NCBI GenBank assembly: GCA_030248065.1 | Contig: JASAMV010006592.1 | Location: 1 to 64,000, forward strand | Direction: 5' to 3' | Source: Rhynchonema sp. JSB1_4 | Lineage: Eukaryota; Nematoda; Chromadorea; Monhysterida; Xyalidae | DNA length: 64,000 bases | Part shown: positions 925 through 58,300 of the stretch, piece by piece | Layout: each line of letters opens with the position of its first letter | How positions within the stretch are numbered: position 1 is the first letter of the stretch | Translations under genes and position numbers: made by a program | Notes under the pieces: model-generated | The model's input: only the letters and a program-made list of their open reading frames with translations | The model's database searches: none | What the model was told of the DNA's origin: nothing

Positions 925-1485
925 AAAGAAAAATGCCCCAAGGGGCATAAAAAAAATATGGTTCCCTGGCTGACTGGCATAAAAGAACGATACTAGCTTG
1001 CACCACTTTGCTGATGTTTCATTAGGCACTGGAATAAACGTAAGTGTGTTCTGAGCTGTTTGATACCGAAACAGTAGACATTGAACCATATTCCCGGCGC
1101 GAACTCTTTTGAATCAACACCCAGCCGATATCGAAACTTTCGTGCAAACCCACATATTTAGGCAACTGTTTCTTCTTTTCAACCTCACGACGGTAACTGT
1201 GCAGTCTTCGGCTGCGCACGATGGTTCAACAAGGAGAGAAATAAAGAGAATATTGCAATCTTTCAATATCTCCGTGCCCTGTGTCTCTGGTGGCAAGACA
1301 GCACGCGCCGGGAATATGGTTCAATGTCTACTGTTTCGGTATCAAACAGCTCAGAACACACTTACGTTTATTCCAGTGCCTAATGAAACATCAGCAAAGT
1401 GGTGCAAGCTAGTATCGTTCTTTTATGCCAGTCAGCCAGGGAACCATATTTCTTTTATGCCCCTTGGGGCATTTTTCTTTCTTGT
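925..1485. repeat. Inverted repeat, arms about 175 bp, spacer about 205 bp
   Basis: The left arm (about 925-1100) and right arm (about 1306-1485) are near-perfect reverse complements, including the block GCCCCTTGGGGCAT and the block around TTGAACCATATTCCCGGCG. Each arm carries one copy of the 8-mer ATGTTTCA/TGAAACAT (1014 and 1384), which therefore pair with each other. The spacer is unrelated. The ORFs seen here are by-products of the arms. This is probably a foldback transposon; no transposase is present. Confidence 0.8.
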
Positions 1486-1769
1486 AAAAAAGATGCAGCG
1501 GATGTTTCCAGACACAAACACTACTTCTATGATGGTCCAAACTATGGTGATACCTGAAAAAAAATTAGTTTTGAGTTCCGCAATTCAAAAAATGACGTGA
1601 CCAAGACTGCAAACAAACCCATGCCCAGCATCAGGGGATCGAAAGCGGCCATGGGATGATCGTCCACGGTGTTACGCTTAAATCGACCCGGTCCGTCCAA
1701 GATTGCTTCCAGATTCTGGGTGTCGCCATCTATAAATGTTGTGAGACACTGCTTTTCTGTTCGGTCTCC

Positions 1770-3665: not shown

Positions 3666-6600
3666 ATGACGACCGATACAAAAGCAAATTGCGCTGAAAC
3701 ATCAGAGGTCACAAAATATCGTCTGCTGTGCTCACTCACTTTTCTTCTTGGAGCGTCGAATTTGGTTCTGGCTACAGTTCTAGTGAGTCAATTTTGTTTG
3801 AGGTGTGTTTTACCAGGGAATTGACACATGAGATTTATGAATCGCACTCGGAAAACTGCTGCATTTGCATTAAGTGCATTTCAGGCATTTAGCTTCTGCA
3901 GCACGTTCCTAGTTCCCGAACAAGGTTGCACCAGTAGCAGTGGTACAAGCTTGCGCACAAACCGCACAACACAAACACCGGTCCTGGCCCGAAACAGTGA
4001 CGCTGAACCGACGGTTCTCGATTATTCTCAATGCGATAAGAAGTCATTTTCGAATGAAACAAGGTTTGACTCAATCACGCCGTATGTTTTTTAAATGCCA
4101 ATCGCTCTGTTTGGTTCATTGCAGTCGCGTGCTTGTTTGCTAAAAAAAATAACAGCTCAACTTTGTATCCATGTGCGTAAATAATGTTCAGATCAGCACT
4201 ATCCCGGGCGACATCAATTGGCTGCCAGCAGAAAATCATCGACACTGAATGCAGGATACAAAATCGAACATTGACACCTCCAAGACTGCACGCTGCGTGC
4301 ACCGAACGAGGTGTAGAATTCATTTGTGAAGTCAAAAAAACATGCATGGTTTATTTTCAACCATGGCGTTTTTCTATTTTGCATAGACAATAACAAGAAG
4401 GACACAGTATTCAAATCGATATGGGCATGATAGCGAGAGTAGGCGTGGGCGTATTACTGTGTTCATCTTTGACCACTTATCTTTTCACAGGATGGAGATT
4501 TTTACGTAGCCTAGCCTAAATAAACATGATGCTTCACGCGTGATTTCCGTTTGACATTGCTTCAGATACAGAAAGCTCGTAATGTTTCAGTCAACCATCT
4601 GGCCAATTCCTACCTGGGTTGTTACATGATCTTGGAGCCATACATGCCACAGCACATGAGGATGACAATATTCCAAAACACACTCAGAAGAATGATCACT
4701 GACAGGGACCCTATTACGTGCGTCGAGATGTGCTTGGAACACAGATATCAAGTGGCTGGTAAGTCATTTTCAATAAAATTTATGTTTTGCCGAGGAAACA
4801 GGAAACAACAGTCTCTTTATTACTGTACTTGCGGTGACTTTATTACTTGTGGTGAAACATTTCTCACTTTCTTCAGCGCGTGGCGAAATATATCAAACGT
4901 GCGATAAAACTGTTTTTTGAAAATGTTGCGCACTATAAAAAAAGGCAAATCTCAGGCGATCCACTATCTCGAATGTCGAATTTGCATTTGTAACAATTGA
5001 ATCAGTCAATGCACGAGAATCAAGCAATCTACCGCTCTATGAGGAATCAATCAAAATTGAAGAAAGTAAAAAAGCTAAAAAATATTCATGTTCACCAACA
5101 CACAGGGGTTGTCAACGGCGGTCGTGTGTGCATTTGTGGCTACCCGGACCGCTCACTGCCTCACAACGGCACTCATTTGACCAAGTATCGTTTGCACGAC
5201 TTTCTGTGCGCTACAAGTCTATGTGAAACATCAACCGACCATTTATGCGGAGGCCGATTCGGCATGGCACTGTATCACACCGGGTTGGGATGTGAGTTTC
5301 AGGGTTTGCGTGGAACGGACAGTCTTTCTTCATTTTTTTGGCATCAGTGGTACATAGGATCTGCCGTGGTGCATTCACACTGACGATGACCTTGTGAACC
5401 GTCGAGCAGTAATATTCAGAACGGTAAATCTGAAACAGATATATACGTGAACTGCATTAGCTGCATCATGTTTCACTTCAGCGCATATGTACGTTTCGAC
5501 TCCATGATCGAGTACGGACGGTGTTCCAGGGCATCTTCGGAATGAATTCACCAAAATCACAGAAAAAAAACAGTTTGTTCCAGATCACCCAATAGTCATG
5601 CCTCACCAGATCGACCCCGGCGCCTACCCGTCATATCAGCTCGCAAAAGCCGAAAATCGACCGCTGGTGAAAATTCTGTTCCTTCTGATGCTGAATGGAC
5701 GAAATGTGCGTCAAATACGCCGCTTGTTGAAACATTTGTACGCGCCCCACCACTTCTATTACGTGCACGTGGATGCGAGACAGAATTTGATGCATGATGG
5801 TTAGGACAAGGGCGACAGTTTTGTGGAAAGTTCGTGAGTAAGTGTGGGGTCATGCGGTGCCTTGCCAGCACTGACGAATGCCTGATGTACCGTGCGTCTC
5901 GGCCTGTGCAAACAGCAGGACGAAACGGCTAGCATTCAGTGCAGAATGCTTTGCTTAGCGACATGTGGCCATTGAGTGGTTGACGGTGACATGCATGGTT
6001 GGTTAGGCACTTCAAATGGGGCATCCTTGAGCACCCAAATCGATGGTTCACGTCATTATTTTCCAGTTTGACTGTGGGGAGGTATACCCCTATGATAACA
6101 AACAGGATCCACAGGAGCGCGCACTATTTTCAGCCATGCTCGAAATTCAGCGCCTGATTAGCGATCACAATAACGGCACAGTCAATTTCTTCGTGACCGA
6201 CAGAAGATTTGCGAACGTTTGGGGTTGGTACATGGTTTTGAGCATGAATAAATAGCTGGAGAAAGCAGAATTTAAACTTGAAAATAATTGTTGAATGTAA
6301 CCAGCTGAAGCTGACAAGGTTGTCAGACTTTGAAACATCAACTAATTCCTCCAGGTGGCACATCTCACCTGCAGATGTACCTATCGGCAGTAAATGAATC
6401 GTTGGGCATTTGGACTGACTGGGATTACGTAATCAATTTGAGTGAAACTTGTGCTCTGATAGCACCGATGGAGCAATTGGAAGTGCTACTGGATCGGTTA
6501 GGGGGGGGGTTATTTGGAAATATTTCCATTTTGTTGTGATTGAAATTTTTGTGGTGGTGTAAGATTTATATTTGAACAGATGCTTTACGCCAAGTTGCAT

Positions 6601-9600
6601 GAAACATTACATGTTCAGCTACCGTGGCCACAACTTCATTCGTCCGCTACGTGAGGTAGCAAATTTTTACGAACGAAAGCAGGCACTGAATCGCGTATTT
6701 GTACAATGCGACGATTACATGTTCTCATTGGGAAAACGGTTGGTTGTTGCTACAATATACTGTTGTGTTGAAACATCGGGCAAGCAAAAGAGTCAGCAGA
6801 GTAACTGTTGCCTTTGTTCGCACAAACGAATGTTGTCCTGTTATGGCCGATGTGCACCTTGCCATTGCCAGGTCAGGTTGGTTGGGGTGGTGGGTTTGAC
6901 ATTATGACTTGCCATCAACTATTTTTGCTCATTACACAACTGTTGTGAAGCGGCAACCTTCACAACACACACTTGCGCACTGGCTGGGCATTGTGGCACA
7001 CGGATGGACTCAGATATGGCCGGCTGGCTGAGGCTTCAGAATGGATTTATTACTACCACGCTCAACCCGGATGTCCCAAAGTACCAGCACGACCCATGAT
7101 TCCAATTTTGCAGCGACACCCAACCACGCGGTCTACTAATCGACGGCAGTACTGATTGGTTTGTGTTGCATCGGTCGTTCGCTGAATACCTGGTCCGATC
7201 CACGGATTCCCTGATTCAGGGACTCAAACAGACGCACGACCATTGCATGTCGCCGTTGGAGGCATTCGTCTACACGGTTGGTGCCTGGAAAGTCACGTGA
7301 CCAAATGAATACCAGACTCGGATTCCTGGACTCATAGCCGCGACACCCGACCTGTTTCCAATCCAATTCACGTTATTGTGCTACGATTCAGTCCCGGGGC
7401 ACAGGGTTCACGCCATTCAGGCCCGACCAATTCAGGTCCGGCTGGAGGCTAAGCCTACGCCTATAAATGGGTCAAACATGTTGGGCCTGAATCTGCGGGC
7501 CTGAAAAAAACTGATCCTGAAAAGGTCGTTCCTGAACTTCCGGGCCTCAAAAATTCGCGGAATAAATTCACGTTGGTCCTGTCTCATAGGAACCTGGGAC
7601 AGAATCTTGTGTCGCATTGCCTGGTTGATATGATTTCAACAAGTCGTGCTTTCAACAAAAAAAGTTTTCCAGTTTTTTTATCAGACTTCTTTTCAGACTT
7701 TACGCAACTCAGTGTTCTGTCGGTCGCACATCGACAGCGACTTGCGTCTGACAAACTTCATTCGCGAGAAAGGATGCAAATGCCAACACGCACACATGAT
7801 CGACTGGTGGGATATGCGAACAAAGCCCCCCGGGGGCTCTAGTCGGAAACGTTTCCCAATAGAGCCTCGTGGTTTATGGATTTGTTTTTGACATAACTGG
7901 AAATCATCGTTTACGTGTTACTGAATATTGTCACAATCGCGTTGTGTGTGCACCTCAAGCGCAGCCCTGTTTGTATTCCAATACCTGTTTTGTGAAGAAA
8001 ACCTGTGCCTTTTTCATCGAGTCTTGGAAAACTTTTTGCCCAAGTAATGCCCCCGGGGCTCCATTGAAGGGCTGTATATGGAAAACTCCGTTATGTTAAA
8101 CATGCCACTGTTCCAAAAGGTATACAAAAAATGACGCACTTTTAAGAAAATATTTTGTGCCCTTTAAATTCTTTTCAATCTGAAACTGTTTTCAGGTGTG
8201 GTTGTTCACCATTGGCAATGCGAAAGGCTGACTTTGAGATGGACATGAAAGAACAGGACACGACCGATGATGATCCAATGTTTTTCATTCGAAAAGTGGA
8301 CAGCTCAATCGATCAGAACACGATCACTGAGATTGAGAAACGAGTGAGTTGTACACGCCCAATAATTTTTTGTCTTTTGTTGTCCTTTTTACTGTCATGG
8401 GTTAAAGTGCGCATTCAATACTTTCATGTTTCCCTTTTCCCTGTTTCCCCTTTGCTTCTCGCACGCAGTGCGTGACTCGTATATGACAACAAACAAACGT
8501 CATTTTGGCCTTATTTTATTGTATACCGTTTAGTTTTTATGATCTAAATACTGTACGTAGAAGTAATCGCATGCAGATGGGCCGCAAGGCATTGATGACA
8601 AGAATCGAACATCGTTTATTATTTGACCGACATCAACATGCAGGTGCGCGGTGGTATGGAATCTCCTTTCGCGCATGATGTTTCATTCTATATGGTCTGG
8701 CTGAATGACTACGATCGGAAATACGACAGAAAACGCAGCAAACACGTGAAACATGTCGATAATGGATATCATAGGTGGGCGCACCGAACTTTGGTTTTGC
8801 GTCTATTTTTAGTGCATTTTGACGTGACAGGTGTCCAAGGCTCCGGTGTGCCTTTTTATGTGAATCAGTGCATGCGGTTGTTTATCGGAATCGGAATCGG
8901 GGGATGTAATTTTTTGAACATTACTCGAATTGGGACTTATATTCAAAATTGTTCGATGGCCGCTGATGTTTCGTCATAATAGGTGAACATCGCAATATAC
9001 TAAAATTCAAGCATGCATTTGTCTAATTTCGGGGCCGTTTTTCTTCCCATGATTTCTTGCTCAGATATAGAGTATATTTTTCTATCATTAGGTTCGGGAT
9101 CGGGGGATCCCGTTAAAACACTGGATTGACACAGACGCAGTTTTCGATCGAATCGTGTGAATATGGTGCATGTTTTTTTGAATTTCCAGTTCTAACCCAG
9201 TGCCGCCATCGGCCAAACACAATTGGGTGCTCCGCGTCGCACTTGGCATACTAAGCACCATTAACAAGCAGCTTGACACCGCTTCTCAGTCAAAAGTGTC
9301 GTGCGTTGTCGATGAAGAAAGAGCGCCGATTCAAATTCATATGTACAAGTTGGGATCATTATGTGGAATTTTGAGAAAACGTTTTTTTTCTTCATATTAA
9401 AAAATGAGATTTTTCTCTAAACTAAAATGGCCAGCCAAATTGTCGCGCAGGTACATGAGTGCGATACCGGATCTGTTGGCCCGATACAGACTTGAATGCG
9501 TGACGGATAACGATCAGAGCATGAAATTCGCGATTGAGCTGGAAACAGTTAGTTTCAACCATTTTTTTCCAAGAAAATCCCTGAGAGCAAGCGGTTTTTT

Positions 9601-11522
9601 CACAAGCCGACTTTGTGATCAAGTCGATTTAACACTGAAAGTTTATACAGTCACTCTTTCCAGATGGTGCACCGAAAATCTGATCGGATCGCGAATCCGA
9701 TCGAATACCAGTTGCCGGATGGTCGAGGATTCAGGATTGTGTTGAGCGAGGTGAACAGCGACTACGACCTGGCTGAGGAAATATTCCGAAATCATGTCGG
9801 TGTCATTTCGGGAGGTGAGCGGAAGTACTTCAACTTCAGTCAAAGTTCACAAACAAATTCGATGACATCTGAGTCGGCAGTGATGTTTCACGCAAGCATC
9901 AAGCCAGAATGTGTGTGTCAATCTGGGGTCAGTGTGTTTCTGGTGCTACATTCGCACTGACGATTACTTGCTGTGGTGCATAGCCGTTACTATGGCGTAT
10001 CGTGCGTGAGCGCACAAGATTCAGCGCACCCGTGTGCGGAGCGTAAAATGCGCATATTATGAAAGCCTTGTGCTGTTCCGATGCATTCACGCACTGATGC
10101 TAGCTTGGAGCACCTGACACTTGACCTTACCTAATATGAATGAAACATCATCTTTTCAGGCGATACGCCCTACTTGCGACAAGTTTGGCTGCTCTCAGCG
10201 CCTAAAAACGGACAGTTGGTCAAAAAGTGAAACAATCATTTTCACAAATTTTGTTGTGCCAAAATACCTAAAACGGAATCTTTCCATCTACAGCCCCACC
10301 CCCATCCTTTTCCACACCGTATGGTACAAGCCGGACGGTGCGATACACAGTGTGCAGCCAAGTCGTATTCAGGCACCGCCTCCATACCGATGGCACACAA
10401 ACGCCACTGCTATGTGGAGACAAGCACGTGAAACATTACAACCTGGATTGTGGACGGTGCAAGTGTGGCACAATGCTGTGATGGTGGGTGTGTTGGATGA
10501 TGTTTCAGTTGGTTTTCTGATTGTCATGTACAATGTTGACATCAAAGTGTGTGCGGATTGCATGTGTATGGTAATCAAAGGCCACCACAGGCACCATGAC
10601 CTGTGATCAAAATGTGGTTATCCCCCTGTCCATGGCATACAAATACGGGGACCAACTATCATGTGCATAAACGAACCCGCAGCAATTTTTTGCGCCTTGC
10701 ACATTTTCTTTTATTGTTTTCCCTGCTCCAGATTCACGACAAAATCTTCGGCGTGTTCCCGGCGTCTACGGATTCGGCACTGAGCAGCTCGATGTTTCAA
10801 CGATTCTATACTTTCGGCGACACGTGTTTCATACGGACGCGCGCGCTGAGCGAAAAAGATGGTTGGAGAAAATTTCATTCTTGGGTGGTATAATCGCACA
10901 ATGACCATACTGTATAAGAATTCATCAAAATCAATCCTGATTTTCACGTTCAGTCACTCTTAACTACTGCGCTATTTGTGATTCTCACAAAACATTTTCA
11001 GCTGAAAATAATCTAGCAGATCAACCACATTGCCGCAGGTCTGAAACATTCTCTTTACTACGTGTTTTGTATGTGATCGCGCAACGCAACGTCATTGCCC
11101 AGTCACCAGCCTGCTTTGCGATTCAGGAAAAAAATTTGACCAATTCTTACAAAGTCATTGTGCGACCAATATATGTATTTTCCCGGTGGTATTTTTCGGC
11201 TTGTACTGTTGTTGTCAACGTAACTGGCTGTGTTTCGTGCAAATTCAACAGGGTGTCCATCTGTAGTTGTCGTTATGTCGGCACAGCACGGACGCATAAC
11301 CAGCTGCGCTTGCACGAATCACGGGCAGTCGCGTTGACAGCAATAGTGTTAGCCAAAAGTCCGATTTTTTCAGGTGTGGACGAACCAACCACGCAGCAGG
11401 TGCGAAAGCTACTGCGCAGCTTTGGTGACTGCAACAGCACAGTGTGGAGTTCTTTGGCGCCAGATCTCAAATCCGAAATCAGGGAGGGTCGATTTGATGT
11501 CAAATTACAAGTGCTGGTGTAA
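3666..11522 (+). CDS. xylt: Peptide O-xylosyltransferase (WSC domain, GT14 catalytic domain, xylosyltransferase C-terminal domain)
   Basis: Starts chondroitin/heparan sulfate chains by moving xylose from UDP-xylose to serine of core proteins; a Golgi type II membrane enzyme. Exons read: 3666-3782, 3885-4063, 4192-4330, 4566-4758, 5106-5291, 5584-5799, 6067-6223, 6355-6496, 6619-6738, 7114-7276, 7697-7806, 8196-8343, 8644-8774, 9190-9348, 9451-9547, 9664-9814, 10160-10226, 10294-10483, 10732-10861, 11374-11522; about 980 aa. Exon 1 encodes a short tail plus a membrane anchor. Exon 3 has the family motif SALSRATS. Exons 4-5 form the WSC domain (CICG, LCGGRFG). Then FYYVHVD, WGGTS, DWDYVINLS, STDWFVLHRSF, GCKCQHAHMIDWCGCSP, LSEVNSDYD, LQPGLWTVQVWH and the end FGDCNSTVWSSLAPDLKSEI. 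All junctions keep frame except 5799/6067, where a small exon of length 3n+2 or an error must exist. Length fits XYLT1 (959) and SQV-6. Identification rests on remembered family motifs. Confidence 0.92.
7386..7607. mobile_element. Small inverted-repeat element in a xylosyltransferase intron
   Basis: The ends GATTCAGTCCC (about 7386) and GGGACAGAATC (about 7597-7607) are inverted. The interior repeats TTCAGGCCCG and its complement several times. Similar CGACCTTTTC/TTCAGGCC pieces recur near 15985-16010 and 25565-25600. It lies in the intron between exons 7114-7276 and 7697-7806 and has no coding potential. Confidence 0.55.
10889..11170. mobile_element. Foldback MITE, copy A, in the last xylosyltransferase intron
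   Basis: The terminal inverted repeats read CGCACAATGACCATACTGTA at the left and, in complement, GGTCGCACAATGACTTTGTA at the right. A second copy lies inverted at 12981-13253 and a fragment at about 25893-25975. The palindrome centre (about 11030) lies within 15 bp of the TGAAACAT 8-mer at 11042. The intron runs 10862-11373. Confidence 0.8.
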
Positions 11523-12065: not shown

Positions 12066-15000
12066 TCACAACCACGTTGACTTAGTGTGCTGCACAAACT
12101 CGTCCTCCGCAGAGCACCCGTCACCGTCACTCCTCCGCCTTCCATCTGGTGCCTGTCTCATTCGCGCACATCTCAACCACAAATCAGCAACGACCATCTT
12201 GGGTCGGAGCCAGAAAATCGCAACGAACGTGTCGCGAAACAGACTCGACATGATGCAGTAGAGACCGAAATTGATCGAACTATTGATCAGGGAGAGCAGA
12301 TCGAATACGTTGCCGACAATCGGGTAGATCATTCGGTAGAGGTCGGTCGGATAGAGTGATGCGACGATTGAATAGGCGGCCTGCGGCAATTCGGTCAACA
12401 GGGACACCAGAAGGATGGTGATCAGCAGCACGGTCGTTCGGTGGGCGAAACCTGGATGTTAACGATGGATACGTTGATTGGAGAAAGGCTTTTGATTTTG
12501 TCAGACGGTTTTGGGGTTCACGTGGTCGCCCCGGTCATTTGAGGTTTCACACTGATGATGCCAGGGTTTCACATTGAGAGTGAAACGGGCAAAAGTCACT
12601 CGACCAGCGACTCGCCTACGGTGAACCTGGTCGGAGGTCGTTTTCGCAAACAGACAGTTTGCGCCAGGGCATCATCAGTGCGAGTAGGTCCCCCACGTGA
12701 CCGCACCCATTTCCACAAGTACCTGCACAGTGGTGCGTGCCCGAATGCTGCACGGCCAGTGGCATGGCGCTGGCGATCGTCATCTGATCCAGCCCGTCAA
12801 CAAAGTCGCTCGTCCGCCGTCGGGCCAACATCGATGGCTTTAATGCGGCCGGGTTGCTGCATCTGTAATCAATTTACTGCAACTTGTCAGAAGTTTGGCC
12901 GTGGGCTGCGATGAGAGGACGGCTAGGATTCATGTTGTCAACTTTGATCGTCAGGTATGAAATGCACACAACCAACAGATATTGGTCGCACAATGACTTT
13001 GTAAGAATTGGTCAGTTTTTTTCCTGATTCGTAAAGAGGGAAAGTGACGGGGCAATGACGTTGCGTTGCGTGATCGCACACAAAGCATGCAGTAAAGAGA
13101 ATGTTTCAGACCTGCGGCAACGTGGTTGATCTGCGATTATTTTCAGCTGAAAATGTTATGTGAGAATCACAAAGAGCACAGTGGTTAAGAGTGACTGAAC
13201 TTGAAAATCAGGATTGATTTGATGAATTCTTATATGGCCATTGTGCGACCAATACAAACATGCCTTACAAACATCAGCAGATGCGTGCTGGACTGAGTTG
13301 CCGGCAAAAGTTAACGATCCCTGAGTTGGCAAAAATTAGCGCACGCACTCTTAGCGAACACGTATGCAAGGCGCACTGGGTTGTTTTTTTTTTAAAAAAA
13401 TATGCCTTCTATGTGTCGCAAAAAAATAACAAAATGGCAGACCCCACCCACTTGTCACGTAACCCCGGCGATTGGAACGCAATAGGCGCGTTCTCGTCCA
13501 CAGCGGTCAGCTGATGCGCATGAGTGTGTACAATCACCGTTGATTGCTTTTGGCAAATTGATGGCGCCTATAAATTCAAACACTTGAAGGCAGTTTTATA
13601 GTCTTTCCGTTTTATCATATAGCCTAGCAGCAACATACAGAAAATGTTTCATTGCCTTGAAAACATAGCAGTCATCGTCGTGCATGATAACCAACAGGTT
13701 GACAACGTGGCTCGGAAACTGCCTGTTATAATGATGGCTGCTGTTTCGATGAAACCTCTGCTGTATACTTTGTGTGGACCGAGAATAAAATGAAACACTA
13801 TACGATCACATCACTCTTTGTGCTAAGAATATAGCGAGATTTATTCGGGATGCCTCTAATTTCGCCCTGAAGACCTGACCAAAGTCATGGTTGTAACCCA
13901 AGAGAAAAGAAAATCATTTCGTACTTCCTGAGCCACACTGGTGGCGCATGCCTCATAGCGGAACCGCTTTCGTGTGTCTTGCGCCCGCTTGTAGCTTCGG
14001 ACCAGCATCACAATCAAGCCAGTCAGGCACACACACGGCAGAAGTTTGAAGAATAGGCCTGAAATGTATAAATTCTCAGTTATTATTACTTTTATAATAT
14101 ATTTTTACGTGAAAGTTTGTTCGCATGTTATGTACATATACAGTAATTCGTCACGTTGCAAGTAAAAGCAAAAATGACACACGCGGCGCCTACGAAGTCA
14201 GGGCGAGTCATGTATGTATGGTCTATTTATGTCATCATGGCACACAAAGCTAACATAGGCAACATGCTCCACGAATAATGTTGCGTTTAATGCCATGGCG
14301 CCGTGTGTGAATTATGAAAGCGTCAGGAGGTCAAGAGAGGTTGTTTAGACAATTCAAGACATAAATGTTTGAAGTGCCCGCTGTTCTCTGTTTGGTTGTG
14401 GTCGGTTTGATACATGATTGTTGTGAAAGTTGTGCCGCGCGTTACCAACTTGTCTGATGATGGTAAAATTCAAGTCATGTCCCACGCCATCTTCTATGCG
14501 ACATAAATTCACGAATGCAACACATTCCAAGAGAATTCAAAGAAGTGCATTTTGTTGCGACATGAAAATATTTTAGCCGGTCTCTATATGTGTATGCACC
14601 CACCATTTGTCCACAAACATATCCTCACGACCAGACAGTCGTGCATGAGTGCAATACGCGAGTAGTCAACGCGCCAACGCGGTCCGGTCAGATTACGACA
14701 TTCGGCCGGGTCATTACGTGTCGCCACTGTATCGGCGATATACGCCGAGCTGGAATCAGGGTTGGGCAAAAAAAAAACGACGGCGTTTTTTCTTAAAAAA
14801 ACGACGTTTTTTTTTAAAAAAACGCCTGGGTCGTTTTTCGTTTTTTTTAAACCCTGAATTTCCTTGATTTTCCCTGATCTTTCAGGGAAAGTACCCTGAT
14901 TATCAAGGAAAATCAATTTTTTGTCCCATTTTTTTCAAAAAATTTTCGACCAATTTTTACTTTGTCGAGATACGTCGATATGCGGAGTTTGACTTTCAGT

Positions 15001-24340: not shown

Positions 24341-24344
24341 AAAA

Positions 24345-24500
24345 CAGTTTAACCGAAAGTTGGGTGCAGTATTCGGTGTAAAGTTCGGTGGGGGAGCTCG
24401 GTGTAAACATGAAACATTGACTGCTATTGGGGTGTTTCAAATTTACACCGAACTTTCCGATTTTCGACCAAGCATCACACCGACTTTTGCTGTTGTTTAA
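24345..24500. repeat. Small degenerate foldback centred on TGAAACAT
   Basis: GGTGTAAAGTTCGGTG-type blocks on the left face TACACCGAACTTTC-type blocks on the right. The centre is about 24420 and the 8-mer is at 24410. Its design resembles 44397-44590, which also has a GGTGTAAA / TTTACACC theme. Confidence 0.6.
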
Positions 24501-44378: not shown

Positions 44379-44396
44379 GCGGGGACACTGGGTGGC

Positions 44397-44590
44397 ATTT
44401 TCCAAACGGTGTAAAGGCCAGTTGGGTATAAAGGTCGGTCGCAAGCTCGGTGTGAGAAAGTTCTGTGTGAGGTCGGCGTAAGCTTGAAACATTGCTCAGC
44501 GTGCACTGTTTCAAGATTTCGCCGAACTTTCTCACACTGAGCTTGCCACCGACCTTTACGCTCAACTGACCTTTACACCGTTTCGAAAAT
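44397..44590. repeat. Foldback element with TGAAACAT at its centre
   Basis: Arms ATTTTCCAAACGGTGTAAAG...GGTCGGTCGCAAGCTC and complement (...CCGTTTCGAAAAT). Centre about 44494; TGAAACAT at 44485-44492. Confidence 0.82.
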
Positions 44591-44628
44591 ATCACTCACT
44601 CTGATGCGTTGGCACGAAATATGCGAAT

Positions 44629-45394
44629 ATGCGTAGACCAGATGAGAGTAAGCCGCTTTCATGCTCGGCAAGCCTGAATCTCATAATGCGTAGTGTGGCT
44701 AAAAAATTCATTCCTTTCCAATCCCCGTCCAACACAGACCCTGTATCAACACTTCCACCGAAACTGTTCGAACGCGGTATTGCGGGCAGCAACAACGCCA
44801 GCAAACGGCCATGTATGAAACGTGTGACAACGCTCAGCGAAAACAACAATGATGACAGTCCTGATGTGAGTGCGTACTGTTGCTCATCAATCGTCCAGCT
44901 TGCTACAACCAGCGCACTGATTGTGGCCGAGTTCGAACTCGTCACATACACAATAGCTGTTGAGAATAAAACCAGCGCTTTTTATTTCAGGGCCGCTCGA
45001 AATTGCTGTGTGGTTGGTTAGTGTATGGCACCTGATGTGGGCAGCAATGTTGAGCAGCGCACATACTTATTTCAGTGAAGCACCAGTTTTGAGCCCTACC
45101 CTGACTGCGTAGACTCACACCTACAATAGACTAGAAGCCCACTGTGTGGGATAGGATCAGTTACCCAACCACACATACACTACCGCAGTGACCAATCTAC
45201 CGTATGCGACCTACCGTAACCCCGCACCTGGTTTTCAGCACGAACAAGCGCTGATGAACAAGGAGACAACGCCGTGCAGCCAAATGCACAGCAACGAATT
45301 GATGCGACATCAACACACCCATCCGTCCACGCCAACTCGGCTGCGTTTGAAACATGATTGCGAAAGTGTCGATTTCCCGTTTCCGCCTGTTTGA
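44629..45394 (+). CDS. Two possible exons of an unrecognised gene
   Basis: 44629-44866 encodes a polar, basic protein start (KKFIPFQSPSNTDP, SKRPCMKRVTTL, SENNNDDSPD) ending at a GTGAGT donor. 45239-45394 follows a TTTTCAG acceptor and continues in phase (HEQALMNKETTPCSQMHSNE...) to a stop. Low-complexity acidic/basic composition is typical of a nuclear protein N-terminus, but no family can be named and antisense ORFs are equally open. It lies upstream of the FGGY kinase on the same strand. Confidence 0.25.
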
Positions 45395-46053: not shown

Positions 46054-48870
46054 ATGTCGACAGATCCCCTATTTATTGGCGTTGATGTGGGCACTGGTAG
46101 CGTTCGTGTCGCTATCGTTGGAAAAGGTGAAATGAAAGTTTACAATTTTAAATCTGTTTTCCAAAAAAAATTAAAATTCTGATGAAACCGCGGAGCCGGC
46201 GAAAACAAATACGTTTTATTTTGCCGACAGGCCAGCAATGACATTATGGTACACAAGATAATGTTTCAGGCGGAAACGTGCTTGATTCGTGCACCAGGGG
46301 CCTGACGATACATAATCCTGAGGTCGACCACTATTATCAGTCGAGTGATCAGATCTGGGAGTGTATTCGACGCTCGGTGAGAGTCGCGATCTCAAAAAAT
46401 GTGCATTTTTTATTTTTGTGGAATCTTTTTTTACGAAAATACGACCCCCAGATTCTTGAACTATGCGTGAACGTGGACGACGCGAAGATCAAAGGCATCG
46501 CGTTTGCCGGCACCTGCTCACTGGTCGTGCTCGACCAAAATGGCTAGTTTTTTATTGACTGATTGAAATCGTAAAAATGAACTTTAAATTCAAAACTTTT
46601 CCCGCGTTGTTTAAGGTCCGACAACGTTAGCGACAGACGCCGATGGCCTGACACACAACATCATCATGTGGATGGATCATCGAGCCAAGGTCGAGACCGA
46701 TATGATAAATGCCACCAGGCATACAGCGCTCAAATCAGTCGGTAGGTGTGTATTTATGTGCTGCCGCATTATTGCATAATCACTGATTTTATGTCGAACA
46801 GGCTGAATAAACCAATCAATCATTTATCCCAAGGCGGCTCGATCTCGATTGAAATGCAGCCGCCCAAGTTGGTGTGGTTGCGTAAACATATGAAACATCA
46901 GTTCGATGGTGCGGCGCATTTTATGGACTTGGTTGATTGGCTGTCCTACAAATGCACGGCTGACACAACCAGGTTAATTGTGGCGATATAATGATGTCAA
47001 GCGGATCTCTCTGATAAGAAAAGGTGCCAAGACAAAGTCAAGCCCGCCCCCCTCCAGATACCGGATGCCAGCAAAAGGGCTTGACAGCCACACGGTATGA
47101 TCTTGAATGCATATGCAGATCACAATGCACGGTGGTGTGCAAATGGCTGTACGATGCAAACGAGCAACGGTCGTGTTGGAATGACGATTTTTGGGCCACA
47201 ATCGGTCTGCAATGTTTCACATCGAAGCAGCACGACCGAATCGGGAACAAGGTGGTGGCACCCGGACATGCGATTGGATGCGGTCTGTGTGAAGAGACGG
47301 CCAAATGCTTGGGTATGACATTGTAGTTCTTAATTATTGATTGGGATTCTCCATATATATGGCAACACCCAACCAGGTGATGTTTCACACGCAGGTCTGC
47401 AGCCATCCACACCCGTAGGCGCTGGCCTAATTGATGCGCACGCTGGCGTGCTAACATTGCTCGCTGCTGTGTCAAAGGTAGAAATGTGAGCTTTGTTTTT
47501 TGTCTTAATGTTATTGGCATAACGACACAGCTTTTACCTGACCTTTATATGCTCACAGACCGGTCTTGATCCGCTATCGAGTCTGTGCATCATCAGTGGC
47601 ACATCCGTCTGTCACATGGCACAGTCATCCACTCCACAGTTCATTCACGGTGTCTGGGGACCGTACTTTGGCGCGATTTTGGATGGAAAATGGTTCTGGC
47701 TCACTTCCGCATTCCGTATTTTTTCAATTTTTCATTATTTCGACCACATGATAAGTTTTTATATTCATTATAATTACGTTTGCTTGATCGATCCAGGCTA
47801 AACGAAGCCGGCCAAAGTGCTGTTGGTAACGTGCTGGATCGAATAGTTGACCGTTACGGCCTCGGTCACAACGATGTACTCGACTACATTGACCGTCAGG
47901 GGGACAGCTTAACGACAGCAAAATTAGCCGGCGATTTGCATGTCTGGCCAGACTATCATGGTTTGCAGTTAGCATTTTTTTTCTTAAAAAGAATGCTTCG
48001 ATTTGAAAATGTTGCCTGATTTTCAAGGCAACCGCTCTCCACTTTCCAATCCGAACATGACCGGTGCTCTACTCGGACTCCGACTGGACGACATTGGGCC
48101 AGTCGTTGCTGATGACAAGGATAATGCACTGCGATTGTGTGCACGACAGTATGTCGCACACGTGCAGGTATATGCAGCAATCTCTTGATAGAGGCACCTG
48201 ATGTTTCACAGACAGCGCACGAATTATTGCGGTGCTCACCCTCAGCTCTTGAGTTAGTCGGCCTTCACTCAGGGTTAGGAATGCCAGCGCCTGGGGTCAA
48301 GTAAGCCTAAAACACTCTGCTAGGGACGAGCTTCACGAGTTCCAATTGTTTTTTTTGTCCAAATTTGCAGTCGTTCGCCTACATGACCAAACTGATCGTG
48401 TCGCAAATGTCCAACTACCGATTCAGCAACGTTGCACTCTGCGGCGGCCTACAGCGCAATCGATTGTACGTACAAACGCACGCCGATGTGTTGGAAAAGC
48501 CGGTCGTTCTGCCGAACTGCGAACATCCGGTCGCTCTCGGTTGGTGGTGCCCTTTATGGATCAGGGATTGTTGTGTGTAACAGGCGCCGCACTCCCACTC
48601 AATGGGCATGATAACAAGAACGGAGTACTGGCTGCTTGTGGTTTACGGTCTGGGGCCCACACATTCTCAGGTCCCGTGCCACCCATTTCAGGTGCAGCCA
48701 TGCTGGCCATGTGTGCTACAGGTACGTCACTGCCGGCAGCAATGGAGTACCTGGCCCCAGGAGCCAGCGTCATAGAACCGGAACCGAAAACTGTTGCGTT
48801 TCACGAACGGAAGTACAAGATATTTGAAAAACTCGGCGAAATCGTGAAAAAGACCACGGATGAACGTTGA
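46054..48870 (+). CDS. fggy: FGGY-family carbohydrate kinase (human FGGY / D-ribulokinase type)
   Basis: ATP-dependent phosphorylation of a ketopentose or sugar alcohol in the cytosol. Twelve exons keep one frame: 46054-46126, 46270-46376, 46452-46542, 46616-46741, 46834-46972, 47119-47312, 47395-47477, 47559-47692, 47797-47960, 48028-48167, 48371-48539, 48692-48870; 532 aa against 551 in human FGGY. N-terminal ASKHA nucleotide fold GVDVGTGSVRVAIV; then AFAGTCSLVVLD, IIMWMDHRA (substrate side), QPPKLVWLRKH, GAGLIDAHAGVL, CIISGTSVCHM, GVWGPYFG, DLHVWPDYHGNRSPL (family signature) and NVALCGGLQRNRLYVQTHAD. Complete, no break. Intron 3 appears to begin with GC (AATG|GCTAGT) instead of GT. The 8-mer ATGTTTCA occurs in exons 5 and 6 and in introns 1, 6 and 10. 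Exact sugar cannot be told from sequence. Confidence 0.95.
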
Positions 48871-49368: not shown

Positions 49369-52300
49369 CTATTTATTGTCCGCTTCGTTCTTCTTCAGTA
49401 TCACGATGCCCTCGAGATGCGGCGACAGGCACGAGTCTGGAACACGGCGCGCGCAAATCAACAAAAACCAAAATAATGAAAGAGAAAAAACTGAGAAAAA
49501 CAAAAAAAACATAAAATAAAATAGACGCAACGCAACTCACAGTCTTCATTGGCCAATTCGGCGCGCTCGCCGAACGCCAGCAGCACGGGCGTGTTGTGCG
49601 TGCGAAAGCCGGTGATCGTCTTCGGTTTACCAGCTTGGCCCACCGCGTCAACAGCCTGGAAAGCGCTCAAGCAATTTTAGTTTATTCTTAGCATAACTAA
49701 TTTCTGGTCGTTTTATTTATTTAATTTGACAGAACAAACCCTAAGCGATTGGACGTCAAATTCATTGGTGCTTAATTTAGAGCGAATAAAACATTTTACA
49801 CACAGTCTGTGCGACGAAAGGTATATACATCGCAGGTTCGATTGAATGAAAAAACCACCGCAATCGTATCAAATCACCACCAAAAAGCCAAACACAACAA
49901 CAGCCCGCCGTTCCGTTTCCAACCTGTCCGACCCTGACAGGCACGTTGACTTGACTCAATTGTTCCGTGTTCGTTTCATCGACCACCGTTGTGATCAACA
50001 TACGTGGCTGCATTGCCGGTGTCAGTGTGTACAACAAGTAGTGCTGACGTCCGTTCAGTACGGCTGCAAATAGCACACGCTTGGTCGGCATACTTTGGCT
50101 AGACAGCCACAATGTTTTTTTTAATTTGTTCATTTGTGTGCAAATGTTTCATTTATTTCGCTCAGTGGGTACATCTGATGGCACTATATTGGTGGTAGCG
50201 AAACGTCATAAACCTGCAACCATTTGTAATGGTTCTGAAATTGTGGAGCGCGTGTCAAGAGCAACCAAACAACACGAACTCTTTCGTCCACAACTACATA
50301 CAGTATATAACACTGCGCAACGCAAACACATCAGACAGCCACAGCCCCTTGTTGACCGTGGGTGGGTCGACCCAAACATACAAAACGTGTGCCCTCGATG
50401 CTGCACCGAGCCTGACACGGTCGAACATCTGTTCCGTTGCAAAAGCCGACCCATATCCACGAGCCCAATCGATCTGTGGCGTAACCCGATCAAATGCGCA
50501 GAAGATCTGTCGGACATCTTCAGTCAACAATGAGACTTCGACAACCGAACGTTGGCTATCAATCAACCGTAGGTGGTGGGTGAGAGGACGGATTTATTTT
50601 AGCGGTCACACATACAACTGCTAACTGGTCGCTGAAGGCAATATATGACAGCACAGCATGCGTGAACCAAGTTGATACCAATAATGGTAACTGCCCAAAA
50701 CCCACAATTTTTCGCATCCAGGAACGTAAAGCAGCAGGCGATCAGTCCAGCGACGGCAGCCGTGTTCATCAGTTGACGATCGGAATGGAATGGATTCAAG
50801 GTGAGCGTGCCTTTGCCTGAATCAGGGTAGGTTAATGAGATGCATTGTCGTCCTTAATTCCATGACCAGCGACCACAACCATTATGATCAGAACACGACC
50901 TGGCATGGGCAAATTTTGAATAGCCCAGTAATTTGCGACGAACACCACACAAAACCAACAACTTCAGCACTGTTTCGAATCAATGCTCCAAATTTATCGC
51001 AAAGTATCGGTCACACAAAGAATTGGACATGGCAAGTCGCAGTGCTCGCGATCGAATTCGAGACGGTTCGTTCGCGGTCACGAAACAACATCAACAAAAC
51101 CAAATCAACCACCAACCCAAATGTGTCAGTCCCTGCGCGATACGCACAAGCATGAGTGACTGTGGGTCCTTCTGATGGTACACGGCCAACTGACGCAGCA
51201 TTGTGCCCAGACGCGCGTTGTTCGTGCCTGGAAGAACAGGAAGCCATGTTGCATATCAACAATTTCCGCACAGTTCGTTCGCACTCAGTAACGTGTTGGT
51301 TGGTTTCCTTGCCAGAATTAAACTACATTGAATTGAAAATACAGCTTTTTTATCACCTCCTCGTAAACGCAATGCGAAACATTTTTCAGCACGACGGTCT
51401 ACCCTCGATAGCGACATGCTCGGGACTAGGTCTATCTATTTTCAGTCACTGTAAACAATATCTACCATACTACAATTAGTTGCAACCAAAACAAAAGGTC
51501 AAAAACACATTGCAGACCAAAGTGGCGTCAAAAATACACGAATGTTTCCACCACAAAGCATAGTTTCTTCAGACACTTTTTAGGTGCAATTTGCACCTAA
51601 AAAAATCAGAATTGCGCCTAAAAATTCAGGGTTAGGTGCAAGCTTGCACCTAACATTTTGAGCCCTTATTTCCTTAATTTAGCATTTATACAGCATCTTT
51701 TAAGGTTCGAAAACCTTAGAAACGAAAAAATGCGCTGCGCGGCTTCTTCGTTCCTTCCACTAAATTCCGTCGAAACCTTTGGTGTTTGGTCGACATCGAC
51801 AAAAAATATTTATTGGTCTGATTGCACTTCGCGCACAGTTAGTACCTATTGGTAATTTGATGTGGCATGCTTGGGAAAGCGACTATTCATTGCGTTCCAA
51901 CTTTGTTGAACTTCTAAACGCACGCAAATAGCATTAAAACGCATGACAAGGCAAAAAACACCTAAAATCGGCGTTTTTTATTCAAAATTCAAAGGGCTTG
52001 CACCTAAAAATTGGGCGGTTGCACCTAGTAAATTTTGAAAAAAAAAACCCTGCCACAAAGAGAATGACTGTAAACAGGGTCGACCATGAGCTCATGAGAC
52101 GACTGTTTTTGAAGTTGGCTCGTGCGGATCCAATAATGTTCCGGTTCCACGTATTTCGGAAATAAAAGAAAGAGAAACGCACTATGTATTTAGCAAAAAC
52201 ACGCTCTCCACCTCGGTGCGTAAATTCCCTTTTCACTCCCAAAACATATGTATGTTGAGCAACGTTGCTGTTCGCGTAAGCACGCAACAAATTGAGGTCA

Positions 52301-55300
52301 GCCAGCTGGAACTTGTCATCATCCCTTTCAGCCCAATCTCTTTCTTTTGCTTTTGGAAAAAGTGTAACCGGCGCATTTTTTGAATTTGGCCAAGCAAGCT
52401 TTAAAAAGATTCGTCTCATGAGCACGTGGATGGACTATACAAAAACGGATGCAGTGTCCGTGCGTCACAGCTCTGACATGTCATCAAACTAAATTGCAAC
52501 ACAACACAACCGCTTATCCAAAATGAACACACGCGACGTGGCAACACACGACGAGTCGTCTCATGAGCTCGTGGTTGGACTATACACACCATAAATACTA
52601 TATTGATATCAATCAGTCAATAAAAAGTAACCGACCGGCGCCAACCAATCCCAACGCAAAGATCGCGTTCCTGGCCGTATCGGCATCGGCGTCGTGCGAG
52701 AACTTGCTGAGCGTTTCGAGGATCTGCAGCTGCGGATTGCTGACCGACAACAGAGCCAGCGCAAGCGGCACTGCCTGCCGAATCGCTGGTTCGCCGTAAC
52801 GGATCTGTGGTGTGCAACACAATAATGAATGATTATTGATCACGTCGTGCATTATTCATGCTGCTGCATCATCCGACACGAGAAGCGAAAATGTTTATCG
52901 TGCGTTTATCGTCATCGCGCCGATGCTTTAGTACGCGTTGCTCAACCGACTAAAGTTTCAGGCACGCAAAAGCCTCGGCCGGGCCATTTTCAAACGTGAA
53001 ATAACGTAGCGTCAGTAGATAATGTTTCGCTGACAACATAAGTGCACAAGATTTTGTCTACCATTAAAGTCGCGTAAATATCTTGCGAAAAAAGCCCGCC
53101 AAACACGATCATTTATAGGCAAACCACGCCAACACAGCCCTCCGCGCAAAAACCCCCAAACAAAAAAGCCACCACCCCACCAAAGCCTTTACCCAATTGC
53201 CGACGACAATCATACGACAAACGACAGGACATACCAAATGTCCGAATTGTCTCAGACACATTTGTTCGCCAATATCCTCTCCCATCGCAATCAGTCCAAT
53301 GCCGAGTGCAGCCACGGCCTGCTGGATGCACTGGTCCGGCTTCTTGCCCGCCGTCGAATCCGAGCCGGACTTTTGTGTGCTGCCGCTGGTGCCTGCTGCT
53401 GTCGACGACTTATCGATGTCTTCCTGCAATATTGACACGCTTGCCCATGGCCGGTGGTGTTGCAGAGGTGTTCCTTGGGGGATGGGGAAGAGATTTGCCC
53501 CTAGGGTACGCTAATTTCCCCGACAAAGGTACACTAGCACACTCATTTCCCCAACTTTTGCCTAAAATAGGCATTTTTAGGCCTAAAACGGGTAATTTTT
53601 AGGTCAATTCTGACAAAGTCGCCAATATACCGTTTTTACAGAGAATTTTTTTCCAAAAAGTGGCAAAAATAGGCCAACTTTTCTACCTCAATAGATGTCA
53701 TTTTCCTGAATATGGGTACCCCTTCCCCCAGAGTGTTGTACACTAATAATTTCCCATCCAAAACGGAGGCACGTACACTAATTTCTCCGCCGGACCAGTA
53801 ATTGCCCTGGCGAAGTCCATTTTGCTGGCGAGCGCGCCGGGGTGACCGACAGTGGGTCTGGCAGCAAAATGGGTTGCGGCGCACGTTGCGCCAGCATGCA
53901 ATTTTATTGCCAGATTTGAGGAAAAAATCTCGTTGCTGGTTTTTTTCGAAGTTTTGTTCATTGGGTCAAAAACACATGGCCAGCAAGTCAGGATACCAGG
54001 ATACCACCGGGCTGAAAACTCAGGATACCATCAGCCGGATACCACGAGCGTAACCTCCCAGCGTCACCACTGTCACTATGAACCAACCAACGAACTCCAA
54101 CCTTGCTTTCGTAATGTTCCGAACAGATATGCAACATGCTCTGTATCTTGAGCACGTTGCCCGTGGCCGCATACGCACACACATCGATCAGAATGGCGGT
54201 CATGCCACCGAATGGCTCGGGCAGCGTGCGCACTGTTTCGATAAAGGCCTCGGCCGCGTCCTGCGTGCCTGCAAACCACGCGAGTACGTTCTGGTCGTAC
54301 GAAAGAGGGCTTATTTTTTTTATAATGTCGGTACTTATGTTTGGCAAAGTAAACCAAGATGTTATGCTTGCCAAAACCAATCTTGATATTCACTCTCTTG
54401 CCAGATAGCAAGCAGTATGATCTAAAAATGTAGCACCTGCCAAACTGAAATGTTGCTTGCAGGTTGCGAGTCTTCGCCGTTCCACAAACAAACCACGCAG
54501 GCTTGAAAATCAGGCAGACGAATTTAGCGCTCAGCTGATGACGCAAAGCCATGTAATAGACCAGACACAACGTCAACAAACACACATACCCAAGAATATG
54601 AGCGCAAGCGCGAGCGCCATGAATCGTGTGTTTGAGTCCTTCAATTGACCCTCATCCAATTCAAGCAGATAGGCGAGTATCGCCATCGCAATGGTCGAGT
54701 CGGCTGTGCCCACGCAGATCAGACCCAGCGATAATGCCGCAACGCCTTTCACCTGAATCGTCAAGGCGAGCTTTGTTGAATGGGAAAGCAAATTGGGGAT
54801 ATTATGGTATAGTAAGTTTCTAATTTCGTTGCCTCATGCATTCTTACAGACGCAGGAAAACTCCCGTTCGAAGTCGAAGCAGGCAACAAGCCCAACACAC
54901 AGTCAACAAGCCACGCAGCTCGCTCGCGTGCGTTTCGAATGTTTCAGTCACACAAGCTGCGTGTGTCAGCTGCGTGGCTTGTTCACTGTGTGTTGCCTGC
55001 CTCGACTTCGAACGGGAGTTTTCCTGCGTCTGTAAGAATGCATGAGGCAACGAAATTAGAAATTTACTATATCTGTTATTCACTGCGCTAGCGTGTGAAT
55101 AAGCGCAATGAAAACAAAACAAAATCAACTGGAGACCTCAGGTGTCGCCGACGGTTTTGTGTCCTGCAGCACTTTGCGCAATTCACTCAGCGCCGAGTCC
55201 TCCTCCGACCAGACCGTGGGACGTTTGGAGTTGACGTAGGCCAGACCGAGACTACAATATCAATTATATATATCATATATACAGTATATTTATAATTTTG

Positions 55301-58300
55301 AATGTATAAAAAACGGAAACTTTCGAAATACGACAACGTACCCAAATGTGGATCCGATTCTCATGGTGGTCGAGTCGCTGTGCACGTAGTCAAGCAGAAG
55401 CGCACCGGCCGGATCTGATGGGTCGTTGACACCGCACGTAATGATGCCAATCGCCAACATTGTGCCGGCCTGCGACACACAACACACACACAAATAATTG
55501 GTCGGATCAACTTGGTGGGCACGCACTTGGTTGGACTACGACCGGGCGTTGGCGCAAAGTTATTGGGGCCCGTTGTTTTTGCGATAGAATTGTAGCACTA
55601 ATTCGACCAGCATAAATGTTGCTCCGGTCCCCACAAAGTGCGATACCACGCAAAGTAATTTCGCACATTTCACAGATGTTCTGACAAACACAGCAAGTCA
55701 AACACACCTTTATATAGTCATCGTTGGCATACAGAAATTTATCGCACTGCGTCAGTCCGCTGTCAATGTCCCAACGCATGATCATGCCTTGACTCGCCGC
55801 CGCTGATAGCATACCTGAAAAAACGACTTATAGGCTAGAGATTTACAAATTCCGTACCTATGGTATGGTACCCGATCGTTATTGCATGATTCATTCCGTA
55901 TTTCACACCGGATAAAAGCAACATCTAATTTGCGCCGACCATACCCTGATAATTGAGTGTTTTATGAACAAGATCGCAATTCATGCCTGTTCTCACCATA
56001 ATCCTTGTTCTTGTAGAACCATTTGTTGGCGTCTTCCGACGACGCCGTCACCATTTTGTCTTTGCCGAAACCACAGTTTACGAAACCTGAGAAATGTTTT
56101 CCAATCAGAGTTTATCATGTGAGAAGAAAACGAGAAAAACATTGATAACGTAGTACGCTTATGACCAAAATGTTATTATAAAAAACTAAAAACAACACGC
56201 AAACCATTCACAAACGCAGCGGCGAGATTCAATTTGCTGCTGTCGGGCGCGGCCGGCAGCGCGCCGAATGCCCGTTGAGGTTCGAGGTGCGTTTTGTAGA
56301 TGTCGTCGGGTGTTTTCGGCTCCATGATGTCTAGCTGAAATTGACGGTGCAAATATCAGATGTAAAAAATCTTGAGGATGCGGCTTAATTTGTGTTTAGA
56401 ACTGAAAACATGCAAAGGGCCACTTTACGTTTCACAAGCATACACCACAGATGCTATCAATTATGCCAGGCGTGTATTTCAAAATTTACCAGGTGTAATT
56501 CGAGCATGGATATCCGAATACTGGGTCGAATCAGTGGTGTAGCTACCCAGGCGGGGCGGCAACCTACTGTACCACCCAAAATGCGGGGCGGCAACCTACC
56601 TACTGTACCAGCCGAGCTAGGGGGGGGGTCGTACCACTTGGGGGGGTCATCTGGAAACCGAAATTTTTTATGTCTAAATACTGACGAAAATGTGGCCTAA
56701 AACACTAATTTCGCGCGCATCGCGCGATTTTTCGCCTGTTTGCAGATATGCAAATATGCTAATTTTATGCAATTTTAAGCCAAAAATGAATGTTTTGGGT
56801 GAAAAGTTAGGTGGGGCGGCAACCTACCTACTGTACCAGGGGAGGGGCGGCAACCTACCTACTGTACCAGGCGAGGGGCGGCAACCTACCTACTGTACCT
56901 TGGGGGGGGGACCCCCCCACCCCCAGCCACACCATTGGGTCGAATGTCATGTTTTATAGGTAAGTGACAACTAACTAAGTCCCACAATTGTAGGGGTGTT
57001 CATACAAAGGGTTTTTTTGCAATTCACACATGTGAAGACGCAAAGCAACTACGAACCGAACAATTGTGACAACGCAAACAAGCAAACAAACCTCACGAGC
57101 GAGCGATCTGAAATATTGGTACAGGTCCTGATTGGTGTTGAGTGTGCTTAGATCCTCGGTGTCTCCGTCCAATTCCCAATCACTGAATTCGGGGAAAATA
57201 TGCTGCCGACCGAGCAGCAACGCCATTTGTTTTTGAACAAGTCTGCAACAATGTTTTAGTCTGCGCGTTGATCGTGCCGTTTCATCAAGGCGGGCTAATG
57301 TGCATCTGTTACTGGCGCCGTGCGTATGTACATAAACAGTGGGTGATTAAAACTGGTGATCTCTGATCATGATCCAATACAATTCGGCGCGGCGAAAGTG
57401 TCAATGTGTGTGCATTGCATCTCAAGACCATCTCGCGGACCACAAACACACACTTATTCAGACCACTGCTGTTTTGTCCCCGCTGTTCTGTAATCTGTTG
57501 GAACTACACCCGCTGTTCTGTCCGTGTCCCAAACAAACACCCTCCAAACCCGAAAGTGTCGCATTCAACCTGTCCTTTTCCGCACAAAACACATCCTTGA
57601 TTGCATTGATATCATTCAACATAATTGCGCAGCGCAAAGCCTCAATATTGCGCTCAAACTGCCGACACAATTGCATGCCGAATTTGATTAGGGTCGTGTT
57701 TTCGGGAGATGGTAGAAACGGGACACAGCTGCAACAATTTGGCAATATTGATGTAATTTGCCAGTTTGGAACTTTTGATTAAAAATTAATGAATTTCATC
57801 AAAATATGAAAATCTCGTACCTCAACAAATACAGACAAACGCGCGGCTGTGTGTCCTTGTCGACAAATTTTGTCAAAATATCTAATCGTTCAATTTCCAT
57901 CAACAAATCACACGCCTCGGTTTCGGCGTTGTGTTTCATGTGATGTTGCACAATGTCCTGCATTTTGAATTTATAATATTTATAATGCGGCTGTGCCATA
58001 TCAACCTTGCTGGCGCAAAGCAGTTTGATAACCACTACGCTTGGGGGAATGCGGCAAGTTTGGTCAGACCTTACTGCCCGACAGAATTGACGCACTAATT
58101 TCGACCAGCTAAAAATTGTAGCACCAGTGATGTTTCACTCGAGCAATAAGATCTGTTCGAGATCCTTTTTGGAGGCCAGAGAAGCACGCACCGACGAGGA
58201 CTGGCACCTCGCCCTTCTGTGAAAACCGGCTGTAACGGGCAAAACTCACTGCTGTTACATTATTGTTTAGCTACATACTGTAAGAAGAACATTTCTTGCG

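Follow-up and report, generated by a model that had tools for sequence, protein, structure and literature searches.

The window, a stretch of 64,000 nucleotides (positions 1 to 64,000 of contig JASAMV010006592.1 from Rhynchonema sp. JSB1_4), is dotted with exact copies of a single octamer. A preliminary description of this DNA had counted 42 of them, and our recount bears this out: ATGTTTCA/TGAAACAT occurs 42 times, 21 times per strand. In the same genome this octamer forms the 5' part of the proximal sequence element (PSE) of U1 small nuclear RNA (snRNA) genes, and we consider here what its dispersed copies may do. Of the start positions given originally, 41 of 42 were exact, and one, 3694, was off by one, the correct position being 3695. 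The sites are listed below, with those that show the full 11-mer TGATGTTTCAC given at its coordinates. Labels beginning with L denote fetched loci, which together with the window form our sampled sequence, about 0.17% of the genome.

1014..1021, plus strand, ATGTTTCA copy; inverted duplicate of 1384, flanks identical over the bases printed
1384..1391, minus strand, ATGTTTCA copy; inverted duplicate of 1014
3695..3702, minus strand, ATGTTTCA copy; listed earlier as 3694
4582..4589, plus strand, ATGTTTCA copy
4853..4860, minus strand, ATGTTTCA copy
5223..5233, minus strand, full 11-mer TGATGTTTCAC
5468..5475, plus strand, ATGTTTCA copy
5728..5735, minus strand, ATGTTTCA copy
6331..6338, minus strand, ATGTTTCA copy
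6600..6607, minus strand, ATGTTTCA copy
6769..6776, minus strand, ATGTTTCA copy
8678..8685, plus strand, ATGTTTCA copy
8747..8754, minus strand, ATGTTTCA copy
9881..9891, plus strand, full 11-mer TGATGTTTCAC
10141..10148, minus strand, ATGTTTCA copy
10429..10436, minus strand, ATGTTTCA copy
10500..10507, plus strand, ATGTTTCA copy
10792..10799, plus strand, ATGTTTCA copy
11042..11049, minus strand, ATGTTTCA copy; dispersed repeat family, also at 13101 and in L010, L030, L032 and L036
13101..13108, plus strand, ATGTTTCA copy; repeat family of 11042
13644..13651, plus strand, ATGTTTCA copy
15278..15288, minus strand, full 11-mer TGATGTTTCAC
15472..15479, plus strand, ATGTTTCA copy; dispersed repeat family, also at 15753 and in L020, L025, L028, L032, L036 and L052
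15753..15760, plus strand, ATGTTTCA copy; repeat family of 15472
16412..16419, plus strand, ATGTTTCA copy
17961..17971, plus strand, full 11-mer TGATGTTTCAC; duplicate of 19041
18374..18381, minus strand, ATGTTTCA copy
19040..19050, minus strand, full 11-mer TGATGTTTCAC; duplicate of 17963
19417..19424, minus strand, ATGTTTCA copy
24410..24417, minus strand, ATGTTTCA copy; repeat family, relative at L018 6850
33454..33461, minus strand, ATGTTTCA copy
35619..35626, plus strand, ATGTTTCA copy
44485..44492, minus strand, ATGTTTCA copy; repeat family, relatives at L018 6850 and 6877
45348..45355, minus strand, ATGTTTCA copy
46261..46268, plus strand, ATGTTTCA copy
46891..46898, minus strand, ATGTTTCA copy
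47212..47219, plus strand, ATGTTTCA copy
47378..47388, plus strand, full 11-mer TGATGTTTCAC
48199..48209, plus strand, full 11-mer TGATGTTTCAC
50144..50151, plus strand, ATGTTTCA copy
54939..54946, plus strand, ATGTTTCA copy; relatives in L006 and L023
58128..58138, plus strand, full 11-mer TGATGTTTCAC

Dinucleotide-preserving shuffles of the window (n = 100) held a mean of 6.47 octamers (standard deviation 2.39, largest 11). The excess is therefore real, but at 6.5-fold it is well short of the roughly 20-fold first put forward. The preceding base is a purine at 39 of the 42 sites, as had been noted (G at 20, A at 19, C at 3). Among last-base variants, ATGTTTCC occurs 5 times, ATGTTTCG 6 times and ATGTTTCT once; two of these words had been put at about seven copies, and the actual total is 11. 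The statement that the flanks share nothing else holds only in part: for 11 of the 42 sites the sampled sequence contains an in-register relative, and sites whose flanks do not recur share preferred bases at -2, -1 and +8. Seven 8-mers are commoner in the window than ATGTTTCA outside a satellite, and every one contains a run of A or T. Regular spacing was considered and rejected: gaps of 240-295 bp make up 9 of the 41 between neighbouring window sites, but elsewhere only 2 of 67 sampled and 2 of 89 listed gaps fall in that range.

The excess extends through the genome. A search of 203.9 Mb in 5,747 contigs returned 93,825 copies of ATGTTTCA (46,953 and 46,872 by strand) versus 8,711 of the reversed word (4,310 and 4,401). 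This is a 10.8-fold excess, or some 85,000 exact copies above the reversed word, at an average density of one octamer per 2.2 kb. In 200 kb sampled across 20 contigs (GC 44.6%), the octamer was found 138 times versus 18.7 expected under an order-3 Markov model, ranking fourth by excess after two CA/GT words and poly-C. The genome-wide count is thus far above expectation, and many unrelated 8-mers do not share the excess equally. Under a maximal-order model the excess in this sample is small (138 versus 104.2), because the 7-mers within the octamer share its excess. No published report of the excess appeared among the matches listed for ATGTTTCA, nor did any paper on overrepresented octamers in nematodes concern it by title, in searches that covered few subscription journals.

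The motif is also sharp. The 11-mer TGATGTTTCAC occurs 17,175 times versus 112 for its reversed word, while CTGTTTCA, reportedly the Ruby core of Caenorhabditis elegans, is hardly enriched (15,676 versus 11,744). At the 79 of 215 sites with non-recurring flanks (no 14-mer repeated in the sampled sequence), position -2 favours T (0.66), position -1 favours G (0.68) or A (0.23) and position +8 favours C (0.47); beyond the 11-mer, base preferences are weak at most. The sampled sequence contains 230 exact octamers versus 23-30 expected, depending on Markov order, and its 24 one-base neighbours, pooled, number 558 versus 480-543. Genome-wide, 324,945 such neighbours compare with 215,330 neighbours of the reversed word. 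The ratio is 1.51 and its Markov expectation 1.31-1.45, so that the true excess of neighbours may be some 13,000-43,000 compared with about 85,000 exact copies. Since steady neutral decay would leave near-copies at least as numerous as exact ones, the copies appear to be either maintained or young. Their density is overdispersed, with a mean of 5.25 and a variance of 19.8 per 10 kb across 24 segments (L020 and L028 excluded).

To place the octamer, we located snRNA genes in the genome. Ten U1 loci were found, nine of them above the family cut-off, and seven of the ten carry the exact octamer with its first base 42-43 nt ahead of +1. In six of these seven (the exception being L037) it is followed, after five bases, by GAATGAC or GAACGAC (GAAYGAC). 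The remaining three carry diverged forms at the octamer position; two of them, L032 (1975) and L036 (1182), are diverged at -42 and show instead, some 320 bp upstream, a bipartite element that is exact. Upstream stretches were taken for the eight of nine U2 matches and the five of nine U6 matches that exceeded their cut-offs. Those of U2 showed the exact octamer once (at 45 nt), TGATGTGACA four times, TGACGTGACA once and other diverged forms twice. Four of the five U6 stretches (L066-L069) had TGATGCTACA together with a TATA-like GATAAAAG, presumably the element in a polymerase III form, and one had nothing similar. The frame TGATGnnnCA is common to the dispersed 11-mer and most of the U2 and U6 stretches examined. 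Given the known role of the PSE, the octamer is presumably part of a predicted SNAPc site.

Most dispersed copies, however, are not full PSEs, as only 284 sites genome-wide fit the strict bipartite form ATGTTTCA-N5-RAATGAC, versus 1 for the control. In 229 sampled sites the second half was seen at offset 13 in 15 (8 of them at U1 loci), and offsets 9 and 10 score 10 and 13; this sample alone is therefore no proof of the pairing, which the genome-wide count provides. The strict sites are clustered: the first 100 fall on 61 contigs, versus 96.5 in simulations from the contig-length distribution (500 draws, minimum 89), a figure somewhat inflated by a few identical pairs that share one contig and are perhaps duplications. 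Within 4.5 kb, a locus on contig C3050 (L019, 5488-9932) has five sites of bipartite type, of which three are strict, and no recognised snRNA gene; it is a candidate small-RNA gene cluster. Read by eye and post hoc, all five have a YRNT with its T at 43-47 nt, a pattern that the sites in L014 and L017 do not show; we regard this as a lead only.

The host seems, from its proteins, to be a nematode outside the well-sampled groups and apparently outside clade V. An UNC-29-like receptor exon (L026) matched nematodes with identities that were mostly 42-59% across the greater part of the query, with higher values at partial cover (Romanomermis, 81% over 45%; Strongylus, 71% over 42%) and 43% to Priapulus, among the 120 of 260 matches listed; we take the matching nematodes to belong to clades I, III, IV and V. 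TTR-52, which we take to be a nematode family, has 15 matches in the genome. COX1 is 66-70% identical to proteins of arthropods and a priapulid, with one further protein at 80%, and no close named relative was found among the best 120 of 7,998 matches. Piwi-domain exon matches number 54, and one gene is plainly Argonaute-like. Two exons of C1663 (L049, L055) have PIWI-clade proteins as their best structure matches (Siwi, 1.7e-8; 'Protein piwi', 1.9e-15; PDB), and C3368 and C4595 (L056) share the same layout of Piwi-domain matches. By these comparisons the genome is predicted to encode PIWI-clade Argonaute exons. Outside clade V, one survey reports Piwi from plectids only among the nematodes it examined (PMC6436959), and none is tabulated for clades I to IV in another (PMC4323106). 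A plectid host is unlikely, no Plectus being among the names listed for the receptor exon and COX1, although the genome of Plectus murrayi is similar in size and GC content, given as 225.7 Mb with 43.6% GC (PMC8022722).

These features invite comparison with nematode PIWI-interacting RNA (piRNA) promoters, whose Ruby motif is described as derived from the SNAPc motif, with a consensus given as GTTTC and a peak 42 nt from the 21U; the GTTTC half alone is retained in Rhabditina, and both halves are present in plectids (PMC6436959). Like the Ruby motif of C. elegans and Pristionchus, the octamer has a GTTTC core and is half of a SNAPc-type element in a host with PIWI, and a dispersed layout is reported for P. 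pacificus as well (PMC6436959). It differs in that the first core position must be A (CTGTTTCA being barely enriched), in its sharp 8-mer, in being several-fold more numerous, in showing no downstream T at 79 sites, and in belonging to a host without a close named relative among the matches listed. The enrichment of a GTTTC-containing word, as in type I piRNA genes, concerns the word only and not placement upstream of piRNAs. In Plectus sambesii and P. murrayi, where a scan gave 3,082 sites in the latter, one bipartite element is common to snRNA and small-RNA promoters, and a clustered full-element class exists here too; in plectids, however, both parts are said to occur together nearly always, with the extra part 5' of the Ruby part and GTTTC in the 3' half (PMC6436959), whereas here most sites have one part and GAATGAC is 3' in U1. 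The snRNA PSE itself has the identical octamer at seven of ten U1 loci and, in most of the U2 and U6 stretches examined, the frame TGATGnnnCA; the dispersed sites differ from it in that most copies lack the 3' half. Composition around 142 sites (L028 excluded) is promoter-like: G+T is higher downstream than upstream by 0.032 (z 2.9) and GC is raised within 60 bp (z 4.1), values that none of 300 random position sets reached in either case.

Part of the motif is carried by repeats. Of 228 sampled sites, 104 have an in-register homologue and 124 do not, and 81 of 23,901 cross-locus pairs are homologous, corresponding to about 295 effective families with U1 copies included; low-copy families look unique, as only a small fraction of the genome was sampled. 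Two dispersed families account for the window sites 11042/13101 and 15472/15753, and L028 and L020 contain 37 and 17 octamers per 10 kb, mostly in arrays. Pairs of divergent octamers with a spacing of exactly 27 bp are met repeatedly, at L018:6850-6884, C3:15184, C4:2768, C7:18280 and C10:1569; since relatives of the L018 pair lie in the window at 24410 and 44485, these pairs probably represent one repeat family. In 550 diverged repeat alignments the octamer was kept in 410, whereas other 8-mers were kept in 40% on average and 65% at most; by family it was kept in 13 of 14 (L020) and 14 of 14 (L028) copies, while other families kept it in 3 of 8 and 6 of 15. As the queries were picked for having the octamer, we do not use this conservation as proof. 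The 11-bp form shared among unrelated flanks is not readily explained by repeats.

The remainder of the window holds a satellite of about 200 copies of a 31-bp unit (26066-32297), which lacks the octamer and leaves several reading frames open on both strands. An exon of a Srw-type seven-transmembrane G-protein-coupled receptor lies on the minus strand at 12066-12458 (Pfam PF10324, 2.3e-7), and it was the only protein match among the ten window open reading frames tested. Low-complexity frames rich in KK..FF, at 22012-22476, 60391-61213 and 62186-62560, probably belong to one dispersed repeat.

The octamer is in excess and sharp in its core, most U1 loci have it as a promoter element at a fixed distance, the genome has PIWI-clade exons, and a small class of bipartite sites is clustered. 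Together these findings point to a reading to which we give about even chances: that the 5' part of the PSE has multiplied genome-wide as half-sites, with TGATGTTTCAC as the preferred form, and that these are used as, or derived from, small-RNA promoters. SNAPc/SNPC-4, or a SNAPc-based complex such as USTC of C. elegans, would bind the half-sites, and short RNA polymerase II transcripts would start about 42 nt downstream and feed the PIWI pathway, as do those of Ruby-motif half-sites in Rhabditina. Bipartite sites would then act as strong promoters, and the half-sites, which number tens of thousands, would be weak or conditional, with the octamer kept exact by binding, or young through turnover and carriage in repeats. 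The preliminary description had suggested a lineage-specific protein-binding site, which is well supported, and a piRNA promoter in particular, which is plausible, since the octamer forms the 5' part of the U1 element, a kind of element from which the Ruby motif reportedly derives (PMC6436959), and PIWI-clade exons are present. For the pairing or chromatin mark that it also named, the data speak neither way; by anatomy and precedent (PMC6436959), piRNA-type promoter use appears to be the best-supported reading.

Several observations weigh against promoter use. The T proposed 35-50 bp downstream was not found: both T and YRNT stood at background at 36-46 nt in 79 sites, a sample that we estimate would miss a signal present in about a third to half of sites or fewer, over few positions; no GC drop was evident further downstream either. 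The sites far outnumber the piRNA loci reported for C. briggsae (25,883; PMC9683057) and C. elegans (more than 15,000; PMC7917550). Fewer than 1% of the 93,825 octamers have the strict second half, the exact octamer is absent as a PSE from most U2 and all five U6 stretches, and the base at -1 is T in five of the seven exact U1 elements and never T in window sites. The neighbours ATGTTTCG (46 versus 20) and ATGTTACA (31 versus 12) are up about twofold, and the 104 sites with a homologue count on the same side. Some of these points would suit the site of another factor, acting in pairing, architecture, dosage or replication, with a core shared with or borrowed from the PSE half and no transcript. 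The missing initiator signal, the equality of the strands, the 11-bp preferred form without its partner at most sites and the overdispersed density all agree with such a site; the exact octamer is nonetheless a positioned promoter element at seven of ten U1 loci, and the strand-asymmetric composition is more promoter-like than a symmetric mark, so we consider this explanation possible but rather unlikely.

The sites with in-register homologues, the arrays of L028 and L020 and the recurring inverted copies 27 bp apart are what would be expected if several transposon families had the octamer within their promoters or terminal repeats, for instance, and spread it. We think it improbable that the octamer is such a by-product, as the 124 sites without a relative remain even though two families are frequent enough to be sighted repeatedly, the sites with non-recurring flanks show a sharper 11-bp form and no longer common sequence, and so few pairs are homologous, with the reservation about low-copy families given above. 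HIP1 of cyanobacteria is a palindromic bacterial octamer found once per few kb, for which a mutational or repair bias has been proposed. The octamer resembles it as an exact word at one per few kb genome-wide, and a bias keeping one word frequent without function at each site would account for a sharp core that selection could hardly keep at tens of thousands of sites. But ATGTTTCA, unlike HIP1, is not its own reverse complement, it is positioned at snRNA genes, and its preferences at -2, -1 and +8 are absent or weak in the pooled one-base neighbours; a HIP1-like bias is thus very improbable. Chance, composition or an assembly artefact, which has nothing in its favour beyond the simple TTT in the word, is already refuted by the counts versus reversed words, the Markov controls and the shuffles, none of which in 100 reached the observed number, and we give it almost no weight.

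If the half-sites are not promoters, a new explanation is needed for an animal genome with a sharp octamer once every 2.2 kb. If they are, they would offer a direct view of the proposed co-option of an snRNA promoter half for nematode piRNA transcription. The worm would then apparently lie beyond the groups for which that co-option was described, and would have full and half elements coexisting. More tentatively, and at somewhat less than even chances, a PIWI-bearing nematode outside the well-sampled groups may have turned one half of its snRNA promoter element into a genome-wide array of about 85,000 sharp sites, which would be either the largest set of individually promoted small-RNA loci that we know of or a new kind of chromosome-wide mark, read by a factor of the snRNA type.

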